This document shows, piece after piece, positions 43,844-49,226 of a stretch of 64,000 nt of DNA (its first letter is position 1; each line of letters opens with the position of its first letter). This DNA is from Tepiditoga spiralis (GTDB lineage Bacteria > Thermotogota > Thermotogae > Petrotogales > Petrotogaceae): NCBI RefSeq assembly GCF_014701195.1, contig NZ_AP018712.1:1692501-1756500 (forward strand), in the 5' to 3' direction. The notes under the pieces are model-generated. The model was not told where the DNA came from and made no database searches. It was given only the letters and a program-made list of their open reading frames with translations. The position numbers were made by a program, and so were the translations under genes.

Positions 43844-44045
43844 TAAAAATCCTCAAAAACGTTTTTACCAATAATTAACGTTTAAAAAATAATTTTGAAA
43901 TAATTATTATTTATAATGTAAACGAATTAATAAAATAATTAATTAATTAAGAAATTACTAATATATTTAATACAAAAAGACTTTATAACTATTTGTGAAA
44001 AAAATCATATATTTTCACAAAAAAAAAATCATGGAGGTGTTTTTT
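43844..44045 (+). promoter_or_regulatory. Leader and regulatory region of the sulfur-relay operon
   Basis: TATAAT at 43912-43917 is a likely -10 box; no good -35 box precedes it. TTAACGTTTA near 43876 and TAAACGAATTAA near 43918 form a loose inverted pair around the promoter. In the leader, TTTGTGAAAA (43992-44001) and TTTTCACAAA (44012-44021) are a perfect inverted repeat just ahead of the ribosome site GGAGG. These could be operators for the HTH-TusA protein encoded downstream (inference). Confidence 0.5.
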
Positions 44046-44285
44046 ATGGCAAAGTACGAAGTTACAAAAACATTAGATGTTATGGGAGAAGTATGTCCTG
44101 TTCCAGATGTTGAAACCAAAAGAGCTATGAAAAAGATGAAACCTGGAGAAATTTTAGAAGTATTGATTGACTACCCTATGTCTAAAGAAAGAATTCCAGA
44201 AGCTGTTAAAAAAATGGGTAACGAAGTACTTGAAATTGAAGAATCTGGAAGTTCAGAATGGAAAATTTATATTAAAATAAAGTAA
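44046..44285 (+). CDS. tusA: TusA-family sulfur carrier protein
   Basis: 79 residues with the sulfurtransferase motif GEVCPVPDVETKRAM (CPxP with the persulfide cysteine near residue 16) and a two-layer alpha/beta pattern. ATGGAGG precedes the ATG at 44046; upstream in-frame ATGs have no ribosome site. Family knowledge: TusA carries sulfane sulfur between proteins. When placed next to YeeE/YedE transporters (TsuA-TsuB type) it aids thiosulfate uptake. Closely similar to the TusA domain of the regulator at 46373. Confidence 0.92.
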   Translation: MAKYEVTKTLDVMGEVCPVPDVETKRAMKKMKPGEILEVLIDYPMSKERIPEAVKKMGNEVLEIEESGSSEWKIYIKIK

Positions 44286-44305: not shown

Positions 44306-45298
44306 ATGGAATGGTCCGGATTAATAATCGGTCTTATTTTTGGGGTAATTTTACAAAAAGGAAGAGTTTGTTTTAATTCAGCTTTTAGAGATGTTTTAAT
44401 GTTTAAAGATAATTATTTAATGAAACTTGCTGCATTAACACTTGCATTAGAATCAATAGTTTTTGTTTTATTTGCTCAATTTGGTTGGATGACTATGAAT
44501 CCAAAACCATTAAACTGGGGAGCTAATATTGTTGGTGGTTTTATATTTGGGTTAGGAATGGTTTTAGCTGGTGGATGTGCTTCAGGTGTAACTTATAGAG
44601 TTGGAGAAGGTATGACAACAGCTTGGTTTGCGGCTGTTTTCTATGGTTTAACAGGTTATGCTACAAAACATGGTGCTTTTAATTGGTGGTTAAAATTATT
44701 TGGTCAAAGTATAAAAACTACAAATGATTCACAATACTTTGTAGAAAAATCAGGACCAACACTTTCTTCTGTTTTACATTTAAATCAATGGATCGTTGTT
44801 GCCATATTTGTTGGATTGATGTTATGGTATGTTTTTGGAACAAAAACAACAGAAAGACCTACAAAATTAGGATTTAAAACAGCATCTATTCTTATAGCTT
44901 TACTTGCTGGGTTTGCCTTTATAACAAGTACAGCTTCAGGAAGACATTATGGAATGGGAATTACTGGTGGATGGATAAATTTATTTGATGGATTTTTAAA
45001 TAAAAAACCATTAAATTGGGAAGGTTTAGAAATTCTTGGTATTATTGTTGGAGCAGGAATAACCGCTAAATTAGCTGGTGAATTTAAGCTAAGAATGCCT
45101 AAAAATCCAATTACATATTTACAAGTAATGATAGGTGGATTTTTAATGGGACTTGGAGCTGTAACTGCTGGTGGATGTAATGTTGGACATTTCTTAACAG
45201 GTGTTCCACAATTAGCAATATCATCAATTGTTGCTTCAATATTCTTTATATTAGGTAACTGGACAATGGCATGGCTATTGTATAGAGAAAGAGATTAA
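44306..45298 (+). CDS. YeeE/YedE family thiosulfate (or sulfane sulfur) importer, TsuA-like
   Basis: 330 residues, about nine hydrophobic helices in two repeats, with the PF04143-like signatures GLGMVLAGGCASG and GLGAVTAGGCNVGH. Three cysteines fall at residues 22 (GRVCF), 91 (GGCASG) and 291 (GGCNVG). This arrangement is very close to that of the TsuA thiosulfate importer, where such cysteines line the path. Directly follows tusA. The inferred role is import of thiosulfate or related sulfur species to feed the relay proteins downstream. AAGGGGGAG precedes the ATG. Confidence 0.87.
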   Translation: MEWSGLIIGLIFGVILQKGRVCFNSAFRDVLMFKDNYLMKLAALTLALESIVFVLFAQFGWMTMNPKPLNWGANIVGGFIFGLGMVLAGGCASGVTYRVGEGMTTAWFAAVFYGLTGYATKHGAFNWWLKLFGQSIKTTNDSQYFVEKSGPTLSSVLHLNQWIVVAIFVGLMLWYVFGTKTTERPTKLGFKTASILIALLAGFAFITSTASGRHYGMGITGGWINLFDGFLNKKPLNWEGLEILGIIVGAGITAKLAGEFKLRMPKNPITYLQVMIGGFLMGLGAVTAGGCNVGHFLTGVPQLAISSIVASIFFILGNWTMAWLLYRERD

Positions 45299-45314: not shown

Positions 45315-45671
45315 ATGAAAATAGCAATACAAGCAATGGTTCAACCTTATACATATCAAGATCTTGATTCGATAATAAAAATTGCTGATGCAGCTCTTGA
45401 TAAAGGACACGAAGTTACAATATTTTTATTTTGTGACGCAGCATTAGCAAGTAATAAACAAATAAAACCAGTAAGAAGTGATAGAAACTTACCAAAAATA
45501 CTTGAAACAATGATAAAAGAAAAAGGATTAAAAGTAGATATATGTGGAATTTGTATGGATTATAGAGGAATAACAACAGACATGATTATCGAAGGTTCAA
45601 GAGCTAGTGGATTACCTGAATTAGCTGAATTAGTGTATAACTCTGATAGATTTATAAGCTTTATGGCGTGA
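45315..45671 (+). CDS. DsrE/TusD-like sulfur transfer protein
   Basis: 118 residues with the DsrE fold: an N-terminal MKIAIQAMVQPYTYQDLDSIIKI segment, FLFCDAAL and the cysteine pair CGICMDYRG near residue 77. The cysteine position fits the persulfide-carrying Cys of DsrE/TusD. AAGGAGG precedes the ATG. First of three small genes in DsrE-DsrF-DsrH order, each 8-9 bp apart, as expected for a heterohexameric complex. Confidence 0.85.
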   Translation: MKIAIQAMVQPYTYQDLDSIIKIADAALDKGHEVTIFLFCDAALASNKQIKPVRSDRNLPKILETMIKEKGLKVDICGICMDYRGITTDMIIEGSRASGLPELAELVYNSDRFISFMA

Positions 45672-45679
45672 GGTGAAAT

Positions 45680-46042
45680 ATGGATAAAAAAGTATTATTT
45701 GTCGTTTATCAATCTCCTGTAGGATCATTATGGACAAATGAAGGATTTAGAACTGCATTTGGTATGTATGGAGAAGATATTGAACCTTCTTTATTGGTTT
45801 TAGAAGCTGCAAGTACTTCATTATCTAAAAATACAGCACCTGAAAAAATGGGATTATTACCAATAAAAATAGTTCATAGATTTGTAAAAAGATATGAAAC
45901 AGAAGTTTTTGGCGTTGAAGAACATTTAGAAAAGTATGGAGTAAAAAAGGAAAATATCGATGAAAACTTTAATGCAAAATTATTAAAAGAAAATGAGTTA
46001 AATGAGTTTTTTCATTCTTTTGATTCAGTAATATTTATGTGA
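45680..46042 (+). CDS. DsrF/TusC-like protein
   Basis: 120 residues with a DsrE-like fold: KVLFVVYQSPVGSLWTNEGFRTAFGMYGEDIEPSLLVLEAA, the usual N-terminal strand and helix of DsrF/TusC. It has no cysteine, so it would be structural, as is TusC. Starts 8 bp after the DsrE-like gene with GAGGTG upstream. Confidence 0.78.
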   Translation: MDKKVLFVVYQSPVGSLWTNEGFRTAFGMYGEDIEPSLLVLEAASTSLSKNTAPEKMGLLPIKIVHRFVKRYETEVFGVEEHLEKYGVKKENIDENFNAKLLKENELNEFFHSFDSVIFM

Positions 46043-46051
46043 GGTGTTAAT

Positions 46052-46321
46052 ATGGCTCTTGTTTTAGTTAAGTATGGATTAGATAATCCAGCAGAAAGAA
46101 TTAAACTTTCTAATACTAAAGATGAAGATACAATTGTTTTTATACAAAATGGAATATTTTGGACAAGAACAGCTGAAATAAACTCTATAAAAGGTAAAAA
46201 AGTTGCAATAAAAGATGATTTTATTTGTAGAGGTTATGATGAATCAGAAGCAAAAGTACCTTTAATTGATTACTCTAATTTTATTGATATAGTTGAAAAA
46301 GAAGAAAAATTTATAGGATAA
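46052..46321 (+). CDS. DsrH/TusB-like protein
   Basis: 89 residues, typical size of DsrH/TusB: VLVKYGLDNPAERIKLSN, IVFIQNGIFWT and KVAIKDDFICRGYDESEAKV with a single cysteine near residue 68. The order TusD-TusC-TusB and small spacing support the assignment. GAGGTG precedes the ATG. An 11-bp hairpin follows the stop. Confidence 0.78.
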   Translation: MALVLVKYGLDNPAERIKLSNTKDEDTIVFIQNGIFWTRTAEINSIKGKKVAIKDDFICRGYDESEAKVPLIDYSNFIDIVEKEEKFIG

Positions 46322-46347
46322 AGGAAAAGCTAACGCTTTTCCTTTAC
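46320..46347 (+). terminator. Internal hairpin after the DsrH-like gene
   Basis: AAAGGAAAAGC, TAAC, GCTTTTCCTTT. Only three T residues follow, so it may attenuate rather than stop transcription into the HTH-TusA gene. Confidence 0.6.
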
Positions 46348-46372: not shown

Positions 46373-46963
46373 ATGAAGTATAAAAAATTAAATGTACAAA
46401 CATTGGATTTAACTGATTTATTTAAAATCCTTACAAATCAAGCAAGACTTGAAATATTAGTATTATTAAAAGATAGCTGTTCAACTTTAAATGAAATGAT
46501 TGAAAAGTTATCAATGGATAAATCAACAATATATAGACATTTAAGATATTTAAAAAATAGATCATTAATAATTTCTTATGAAAAAGATGGAGTTGAACGT
46601 TATGATCTTTCATGTAAACTTGTATACGATCTTATAGAATCTGGAATACAAATATTGTCAAATTTAAAAAATATAAAATCATATTCTTACAATAATTTAA
46701 AAATATTTTCTAATGAAATAAAGAATATTGAAGAAATAAATGTTGATAAATTTATAGATTTATGTGGAGAAGTATGTCCTGTTCCAGATGTAACAGCAAG
46801 AAAAGAAATAAAAAAATTAAAAAAAGGACAAGTATTACTTGTTATAGTTGATTATCCATTATCAAAAGAAAGAATTCCAAAGATAATAGAGAGTGATGGT
46901 AATGAAATTTTAGCTATAGTAGATGATTCACTGAGTACAAAAATATACATTAGGAGGAACTAA
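46373..46963 (+). CDS. ArsR-like HTH regulator fused to a TusA domain
   Basis: 196 residues. N-terminal winged helix (about 12-90): DLFKILTNQARLEILVLL and SMDKSTIYRHLRYLKNRSLI, ArsR-like. A linker helix follows (about 90-125). The C-terminal TusA domain (about 126-196) has GEVCPVPDVTARKEI, with the intact persulfide cysteine. The TusA part is very like the stand-alone TusA at 44046 (GEVCPVPDV, DYP-SKERIP). The inferred role is a sulfur-state sensor that accepts sulfur on the TusA cysteine and controls the operon. I know of no named family for this architecture. Gene context: between DsrH-like and Lpd genes. Confidence 0.85.
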   Translation: MKYKKLNVQTLDLTDLFKILTNQARLEILVLLKDSCSTLNEMIEKLSMDKSTIYRHLRYLKNRSLIISYEKDGVERYDLSCKLVYDLIESGIQILSNLKNIKSYSYNNLKIFSNEIKNIEEINVDKFIDLCGEVCPVPDVTARKEIKKLKKGQVLLVIVDYPLSKERIPKIIESDGNEILAIVDDSLSTKIYIRRN

Positions 46964-46967
46964 AGAT

Positions 46968-48335
46968 ATGTTTGATGCAATAGTAATTGGTGGTGGTCCA
47001 GGAGGATATGTTTCTGCTATAAGACTTTCTCAGCTTGGTAAAAAAGTTGCTATTATTGAAAAAAAAGCTTTTGGTGGAACATGTACAAATGTTGGGTGTA
47101 TTCCAACAAAAGCCATGTTAACTTCAGCACATTTATATTCAGAAATAATTGAAAAATCAAAAAAGTTTGGAATAGAAGTAGAAAATGTAAATTATAATTT
47201 TAAAAATATAATGAAACATATGGAAAAAATAGTTACATCATCTAAAAAAGGTGTAGAATTTTTAATGAAGAAAAATAAAATAACTGTATACAATGGAACA
47301 GCAGAAATTTTAAATAAAAATACAGTTAAAATAAAAGAAACAAATGAAAATTTAGAAACTAAAAATTTAATATTGGCACATGGTTCTGTTCCAGTTATGT
47401 TTCCACCATTTGATAAGGTTGAAGGGTTGTGGACAAGCGATGATGTTTTTTCACTTGAAAAACTTCCAGAATCAATTTTAATAATAGGTGGAGGAGTAAT
47501 AGGAATTGAATTTTCAACATTTTTTTCTACTTTAGGAAAAAAAGTTTATGTTATAGAATTAGCTGATCACATTTTACCAACAGAAGACTTAGACGTTGCA
47601 AATGAAGTCAAAAAAGTAATAAAGAAAAATGGAGTTTCAATATATGAAAAACATAAAGTGCTTGGAGTAGAAAAAAATGAAACTTCATATATTACTAAAA
47701 TATTAAATTCTGAAACCAATGAAGAAATAAGTATTGAAACTGAAAAAGTACTTATGGCTGTTGGGAGAAAACCAAATATAACAGATGATATTAAAAATCT
47801 TGGAGTAAATATTGAAAGAGGCGTAATATCAAATGATGAAATGAAAACAAATATTGAAAATGTATATGCAGTAGGGGATATAAAAGGGAAAATAATGCTT
47901 GCTCATGTTGCAATGTTTGAAGGAATTGTTGCAGCACACAACATAGCTGGTGAAAAAAAATTAATGGATTATTCAGCAGTTCCATCAATAATTTTCTCTA
48001 ATCCAGAAGTAGCTTCAACAGGTTTAAGAGAAAAAGATTTAGATAAAGAAAAAGTAATAGTATCAAAATTCCCACTTTCTGCAAACCCAAGAGCACGTAC
48101 TCTTGAAGAAAGATATGGTTTTGTAAAAATTATTGCAGATAAAGAAACTAAGAAAATTTTGGGAATGTCTGTTGTTTCACCAAATGCAACAGATATGATT
48201 ATGGAAGGAGTTATTTCAGTAAGAAATAATATGAATATAGAAAATTTAGTTGATTCAATTCATCCTCACCCAACTCTAACAGAATCTTTTTTGGGAGCAT
48301 TGGAAGGATTAGAAGGAATGGCAATACATCTTTAA
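46968..48335 (+). CDS. lpd: Dihydrolipoyl dehydrogenase
   Basis: 455 residues. FAD-binding GGGPGGYVSAIRL at the N-terminus, the redox disulfide GGTCTNVGCIPTKAML near residue 40, NAD-binding GGGVIGIEFS, and the interface HPHPTLTE with the catalytic His-Glu pair. It oxidises dihydrolipoyl carriers with NAD+. Only a GcvH-like lipoyl protein is adjacent (19 bp downstream). No E1/E2 or glycine cleavage genes are present, so the partner is presumably that carrier. GGAGG before the ATG; starts 5 bp after the regulator. Confidence 0.93.
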   Translation: MFDAIVIGGGPGGYVSAIRLSQLGKKVAIIEKKAFGGTCTNVGCIPTKAMLTSAHLYSEIIEKSKKFGIEVENVNYNFKNIMKHMEKIVTSSKKGVEFLMKKNKITVYNGTAEILNKNTVKIKETNENLETKNLILAHGSVPVMFPPFDKVEGLWTSDDVFSLEKLPESILIIGGGVIGIEFSTFFSTLGKKVYVIELADHILPTEDLDVANEVKKVIKKNGVSIYEKHKVLGVEKNETSYITKILNSETNEEISIETEKVLMAVGRKPNITDDIKNLGVNIERGVISNDEMKTNIENVYAVGDIKGKIMLAHVAMFEGIVAAHNIAGEKKLMDYSAVPSIIFSNPEVASTGLREKDLDKEKVIVSKFPLSANPRARTLEERYGFVKIIADKETKKILGMSVVSPNATDMIMEGVISVRNNMNIENLVDSIHPHPTLTESFLGALEGLEGMAIHL

Positions 48336-48353
48336 AAAAAGGGAGGATTTATT

Positions 48354-48695
48354 ATGAAAAAATATTCAGAAACACATGAATATGCTATTATAGATGAAAA
48401 AATAGCAACAATAGGAATATCAATTAATGCAGCTGATGAATTAGGAGATATAACATTTATAGAATTACCTGAAGTTGGAAAAGAAGTTAAGAGTGGAGAT
48501 GTTTTGTGTACTCTTGAATCTGTAAAATCAGCCGGTGATGTTTATACTCCATTAACTGGAAAAGTAATTGAAGTTAATAAAGCTTTAGAAGAAAAGCCAG
48601 AATTAATGAATGATGATCCTGAAGACGAAGGTTGGATTTGTAAAATAGAATTTAGCGCTAAAGAAGAAATAGATAATTTAAAAGATAGTGATTAA
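48354..48695 (+). CDS. GcvH-like lipoyl carrier protein (possible LbpA-type)
   Basis: 113 residues. The lipoyl-lysine hairpin LESVKSAGDVYTPLTGKV is intact and the C-terminal ELMNDDPEDEGWICKIEF follows the GcvH pattern. It is shorter than the usual 125-130 residues. It lacks GcvT/GcvP neighbours. Family knowledge: GcvH-like lipoate-binding proteins (LbpA) in sulfur-oxidising prokaryotes act with TusA/DsrE and sHdr. Here the neighbours are TusA, DsrE-like and Lpd instead. Inferred function: a sulfur-carrying lipoyl arm. GGGAGG precedes the ATG. Confidence 0.82.
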   Translation: MKKYSETHEYAIIDEKIATIGISINAADELGDITFIELPEVGKEVKSGDVLCTLESVKSAGDVYTPLTGKVIEVNKALEEKPELMNDDPEDEGWICKIEFSAKEEIDNLKDSD

Positions 48696-48749: not shown

Positions 48750-48806
48750 CTAATAACCATAATATAAGTGTTTTTTAATATTCTAATATATTAAGAGGTG
48801 ATAAAT

Positions 48807-49226
48807 ATGGCAGTTCCAAATGATGTTCCAGCTATAGGTAAAGATGCATTGGGAAGAGAAGTAAAAGATTTAACAAAAGTTTCATGGTGGGGTTTAAATA
48901 GAAAAGAAGTTGAATGGTTTCCTAAGATTGACTTAGATAAATGTGCAGGTTGTGGTATTTGTTTTGTAAGTTGTGGAAGGAGAGTATTTGATTTTGATGC
49001 TTCATTAGAAAAACCTATTGTTGCTCAACCTTATAACTGTATGGTGGGTTGCCAAACTTGTGCAAATCTTTGTCCAACATCAGCAATATCTTTTCCTGAT
49101 TCAAAGGAAATAAAAAAAATGGTTTCTAAAAACAATGTAGTAAAAAAAGCTTTTGAAAAAATCCAACCTCTTTTGAAAAAAGATAATCTAAGTGAAAAAG
49201 AAATAAAAATTACACCAAACGAATAA
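48807..49226 (+). CDS. Two-cluster ferredoxin-like protein
   Basis: 139 residues. Two cysteine motifs: CAGCGICFVSC (around residue 48) and CMVGCQTCANLCP (around 80) suit two 4Fe-4S clusters, with an N-terminal extension (about 40 residues) and a basic tail. Electron carrier, probably serving Lpd or the sulfur relay (inference from adjacency). ATG at 48807 follows GAGGTG; it is separated from gcvH by a terminator-like hairpin, so it may have its own promoter. Confidence 0.85.
   Translation: MAVPNDVPAIGKDALGREVKDLTKVSWWGLNRKEVEWFPKIDLDKCAGCGICFVSCGRRVFDFDASLEKPIVAQPYNCMVGCQTCANLCPTSAISFPDSKEIKKMVSKNNVVKKAFEKIQPLLKKDNLSEKEIKITPNE

Follow-up and report, generated by a model that had tools for sequence, protein, structure and literature searches.

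The stretch of DNA that we analysed (the window, 64,000 nucleotides of the Tepiditoga spiralis genome) holds a sulfur-relay operon whose features all lie on the forward strand. The first gene encodes a stand-alone TusA sulfur carrier (44046–44285, identified as an ORF and by Pfam) and is followed by genes for a TsuA/YeeE-type thiosulfate transporter (44306–45298; NF052577, 565 bits against a cut-off of 400), a DsrE-like sulfurtransferase subunit (45315–45671, profile matches), a DsrF-like subunit (45680–46042, a weak TusC/DsrF match), a DsrH-like subunit (46052–46321, profile matches), an HTH-TusA fusion, a dihydrolipoyl dehydrogenase (Lpd, 46968–48335; ORF and profile), which starts 4 bp past the fusion gene, and a GcvH-like lipoyl carrier (48354–48695, profile matches). 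The stand-alone TusA and its operon are thus as the first-pass annotation described them. In many genomes the Lpd and GcvH-like pair (46968–48695) is part of the sulfur operon, and it is conceivable that a lipoyl route reduces TusA- or DsrE-bound sulfur to sulfide with NADH. A hairpin with an 11-bp stem and a 4-nt loop (46320–46345) can be read in the sequence at the junction of dsrH with the fusion gene. A hairpin of differing sequence is present at this junction in nearly all other collinear loci that have room for one, and the regulator may therefore be expressed apart from the enzymes or at a lower level.

The fusion gene (46373–46963) is a single unbroken ORF with an ATG start, coding for 196 amino acids. 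Pfam places HTH_5/ArsR (PF01022) at residues 23–66 (E = 7e-7, 29.5 bits against a cut-off of 22) and TusA (PF01206) at residues 127–195 (E = 3e-18, 65.9 bits against a cut-off of 28.6), and the CPVP motif of the latter is intact, with Cys135 as its cysteine. The AlphaFold2 model consists of two well-formed domains; together with the alignment it gives a winged HTH (residues ~13–79), helix 5 (82–98), a loose linker (~99–125) and a TusA fold (126–194). The mean pLDDT is 82, and because the pTM is 0.48 the mutual orientation of the two domains is uncertain. Foldseek matches the N-terminal part to SmtB, CzrA and SqrR and the C-terminal part to TusA and TsuB structures, including 3lvj and 8k1r. The HTH_5 score and the SmtB/CzrA fold matches put the protein in the ArsR/SmtB family in the broad sense, and the profile score, the CPxP cysteine and the fold put its C-terminal domain in the TusA family. 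The ortholog in genome G093, which we take to be almost certainly T. maritima, scores 44.1 bits for HTH_5; in T. maritima the ortholog directly follows TM0979 and is probably TM0978. TsuB is close in sequence to the TusA domain of the fusion, and the stand-alone TusA resembles T. maritima TM0983. Structure 1jdq of TM0983 and, within 8j4c, the TsuB part are the nearest solved relatives for TusA. The original reading of this frame as an ArsR-like HTH joined to TusA with its cysteine intact is borne out by the ORF, Pfam, AlphaFold2 and Foldseek.

The winged-HTH fold and the HTH_5 match are common to HTH-TusA and to ArsR/SmtB proteins such as SmtB, CzrA and the sulfur sensors SqrR, BigR, SoxR and sHdrR. 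Conservation over 33 core members shows where the likeness ends. Cys135 is invariant (33/33) and no other cysteine is; residues 1–125 hold no invariant Cys among these members, Cys36 occurring in 17 of the 33. The classical metal or dithiol sites of the family are therefore absent, including the conserved Cys pair or metal ligands of SmtB, CzrA, SqrR, BigR and SoxR, and the fusion scores below the cut-offs of the BigR profile (16.1 against 155 bits) and of HTH_metalloreg (40 against 55). Unlike in those proteins, sensing would have moved from the HTH to the fused TusA domain. In the recognition helix the DNA-contact residues S51, T52, R55 and L57 are kept at 97–100%, and in the TusA core D129, G132, C135, P136, P138, D160, P162, S164, E166 and R167 are kept. 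The mean frequency of the top residue drops from 0.69 (recognition helix) and 0.64 (TusA domain) to 0.32 in the linker, a pattern that argues for selection on DNA binding as well as on the carrier cysteine. The first-pass annotation spoke of a persulfide-accepting protein, which fits the place of this cysteine as the sole invariant thiol of the family; from the cysteine and its relatives we infer that Cys135 can accept sulfane sulfur as a persulfide. The T. spiralis protein has Cys131 (codons within 46763–46777) instead of the usual Arg131, giving a CxxxC pair with Cys135. We dropped a redox pair of this kind as the general mechanism, since 94% of members have Arg at position 131.

A profile built from 14 orthologs and run on 103 Thermotogota genomes found a full-length ortholog without a stop in 34, from six families. 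The domain search proposed at the outset, to learn whether such fusions form a conserved family, thus shows that this one is not isolated. Two further genomes carry damaged or partial copies (L053 and L054): in G036 the gene is broken and Tyr replaces the carrier Cys, and in G025 it is truncated with no tsuA or dsrEFH adjoining. Counted apart from the 34 is a divergent variant in G089–G091 (genera g34 and g35; L097:5587–6111, L099:998–1486 and L100), located upstream of tusA and lacking the element A described below. Outside the phylum no fusion was found in the ~350 genomes sampled, which gave stand-alone TusA only (~287 genomes plus 70 from three phyla with a similar TusA, a few being counted twice). 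The viral contigs searched held no fusion, the plasmids yielded one YedF only, and a contig search with a single fusion protein returned only a TusA-TsuA-DsrE operon of the same type from Lokiarchaeota (L034:6805–9144), which lacks the fusion. We found no earlier description of an HTH-TusA regulator in the open-access literature searched.

Comparison of 40 loci ties the fusion to the sulfur-relay operon, as first supposed: in most genomes it adjoins tusA-tsuA-dsrEFH, often with Lpd/GcvH as well. It is placed downstream on the same strand, divergently behind lpd/gcvH or, in the variant clade, upstream of tusA; G004 carries it on another contig than tusA, together with lpd and gcvH. As the best model for its role, we propose that HTH-TusA serves as a one-component regulator dedicated to the Thermotogota operon for thiosulfate uptake and sulfur relay.

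The TusA domain of the fusion has Pfam TusA, the CPxP cysteine and the fold in common with the TusA/TsuB (YeeD) carriers; unlike them it is joined to a DNA-binding domain and belongs to a clade of its own. In a tree of 77 TusA domains (71 columns, with poor internal resolution) the fusion domains group in one clade (32 members, SH-aLRT 96), separate from all stand-alone TusAs, and the fusion is therefore ancient. The stand-alone TusA of the window reaches 86% identity with others of its kind; for the window's fusion domain the best value within the tree is 57%, to another fusion domain. The first-pass annotation had suggested capture of the domain from the TusA of the same operon; a recent capture of this kind was dropped on the strength of this clade. 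A long branch places two variant fusions (L097 and L099) among the stand-alone TusAs, and a second, independent fusion event may therefore lie behind the variant clade.

Two inverted repeats (43876–43930 and 43992–44021) had been put forward as sites for the regulator. A motif search over 24 non-redundant tusA upstream regions recovered two elements, which we call A and B. Element B, GTGAAAAAAATCTCAA, reaches a log-likelihood of 187 against ~65 in shuffles and is present in all 24 regions; in the window it reads TTTGTGAAAAAAATCATATA (43992–44011, from the motif and the weight matrix). When the whole G093 genome was scanned with matrices built without Thermotoga sites, tusA and the NADH-dependent [FeFe] hydrogenase gene tied for element B at 23.6 bits. 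The next matches were HydF, HydG, a HoxE/NuoE-like subunit and glycerol dehydrogenase, and further ones a CoA-disulfide-reductase-like flavoprotein (probably NSR) and an antiporter-like subunit (probably of Mbx). The hydrogenase, HydF/HydG and the other targets are the expected Rex regulon. Element B has the TTGTGAA-N4-TTCACAA-like dyad common to known Rex targets, and because the same sites precede the hydrogenase and maturation genes, it is very probably a Rex (NADH-responsive) site, at which we would predict Rex to bind. Two papers cite a Rex site before TM0201 (PMC3750489) and note binding of TmRex to T. maritima sites (PMC6125430). Across the phylum the strict element B pattern was in many genomes no commoner than the control, and only the weight-matrix scan discriminated. 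We dropped element B as the operator of HTH-TusA, its other targets being hydrogenase genes; the repeat at 43992–44021 holds this conserved element and is better explained by Rex.

Element A (motif TTTACCAAaTtGtAAt, consensus TTTACCAAnTnGTAA), found upstream of tusA with element B masked, has a log-likelihood of 150 against 60–65 in shuffles. Its top site in the whole of G093 is the tusA promoter (20.6 bits; runner-up 16.4). At 12 bits or more, a threshold set after the scores were seen, it lies upstream of tusA in 28 of the 30 loci with HTH-TusA (the window not among them) and in none of the nine without; Fisher's test gives 3e-7 when kinship is ignored. The kinship of the genomes inflates this figure, and only two lineages inside Thermotogota have the operon without the fusion. 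In G004 the tusA operon and the unlinked fusion gene each have element A in front of them. It is absent from G043 and from the variant clade G089–G091, all of which have the fusion. The window's copy, TTTACCAATAATTAAC (43864–43879), is degenerate at 7.1 bits yet stands at the expected place with the conserved spacing. We consider it a better candidate for the operator than the repeats first proposed, of which that at 43876–43930 overlaps the promoter and shows no conservation of its arms. An element-A-like TTAACCAAATTGTATA precedes a ferredoxin-like gene in two loci (L037:4522 and L041:13194), an ortholog of the one at 48798–49226 in the window, and this gene may be a further target.

The arrangement of the promoter bears on the direction of control. 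In the window a −10 box, TATAAT (43912–43917), begins exactly 32 bp after element A, and there is no −35 box. Of 29 loci, 17 have a −10 box that starts 30–33 bp after element A, the distance being exactly 32 in 13; at offsets away from this place, used as a control, the count is 0–4. There is no −35 signal, the score being no higher than at control offsets. Elements A and B stand anywhere from 54 to 135 bp apart, and the fixed spacing to the −10 box therefore does not simply reflect low divergence. A site held at a fixed distance upstream in a promoter that lacks a −35 box is typical of activators and points to HTH-TusA acting as one rather than as a repressor. Of the original description of the protein as a repressor fused to a sulfur carrier, the fused regulator stands and the repressor role is doubtful. 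Unlike its ArsR/SmtB relatives, HTH-TusA is probably an activator; ArsR-family proteins are mostly repressors, which counts against our model.

In T. maritima the yeeE gene of this cluster rises 42.6-fold with thiosulfate and only slightly with sulfur (PMC9431562), and PMC11582611 reports that thiosulfate persulfidates TsuB, which likewise carries a TusA domain, and that sulfite is released in the process. We suggest that thiosulfate enters through TsuA and that its sulfane sulfur would pass via TusA and DsrEFH to Cys135. Sulfur loading of this cysteine, sensed by the TusA domain, would switch the regulator, whose ArsR-type winged HTH, probably as a dimer, would bind element A, centred near −52, and activate the promoter, which lacks a −35 box but has a −10 box. 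The downstream Rex site would add control by NADH, such that full activity of the operon would call for thiosulfate together with NADH in excess. We lean towards this scheme, with binding to element A and activation of the operon when Cys135 carries sulfur as its core, and infer the binding, the activation and the persulfide signal alike. We are evenly divided over the wider proposal that HTH-TusA represents a new class of one-component regulators: a sulfur carrier would be the sensor, sulfur in transit would be loaded onto the regulator by the very relay under its control, and the regulator would activate instead of repressing.

The foremost alternative is that HTH-TusA represses from element A or the promoter and is released when Cys135 is loaded, in the manner of SoxR, sHdrR, SqrR and BigR. 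ArsR relatives that sense sulfane sulfur are indeed repressors (PMC11582611), and SqrR is among the fold matches; against this, element A lies a fixed 32 bp upstream of the −10 of a promoter without a −35 box, and the place downstream of the −10, where a repressor would act, is already occupied by the Rex-like site, so we regard repression as rather unlikely. The location of the gene within a relay operon and its intact TusA domain would also suit a sulfurtransferase subunit or relay scaffold that uses the HTH for protein interaction or dimerisation and leaves the elements to other regulators. The recognition helix, unlike the linker, equals the TusA domain in conservation, several genomes have the gene divergent or unlinked, an arrangement often seen for regulators, and the presence of element A follows the fusion; a scaffold is therefore improbable.

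Element A could also be owned by another local regulator. One form of this idea leaves the operon to Rex alone, with element A serving another factor and the role of HTH-TusA minor or lost. It accounts for the occurrence of element B in all the upstream regions searched and for its sharing with the hydrogenase and maturation genes. Rex senses NADH and does not explain a response specific to thiosulfate: an added electron acceptor should lower NADH, making the strong induction of yeeE unexpected (our reading of PMC9431562). As element A moreover does not depend on element B and goes with the fusion, we think it very unlikely that Rex acts alone.

Activation by HTH-TusA through element A, if true, would identify the thiosulfate regulator that has been missing in Thermotogota and would add a sulfur-flux sensor module. 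SoxR of Hyphomicrobium, like HTH-TusA, has genes for a YeeE-type transporter and TusA as neighbours, and how SoxR and sHdrR obtain sulfur, directly or through TusA, is stated to be open (PMC11582611). With carrier and regulator fused, the question of sulfur delivery would become testable in one protein and in a cultivable model, T. maritima.
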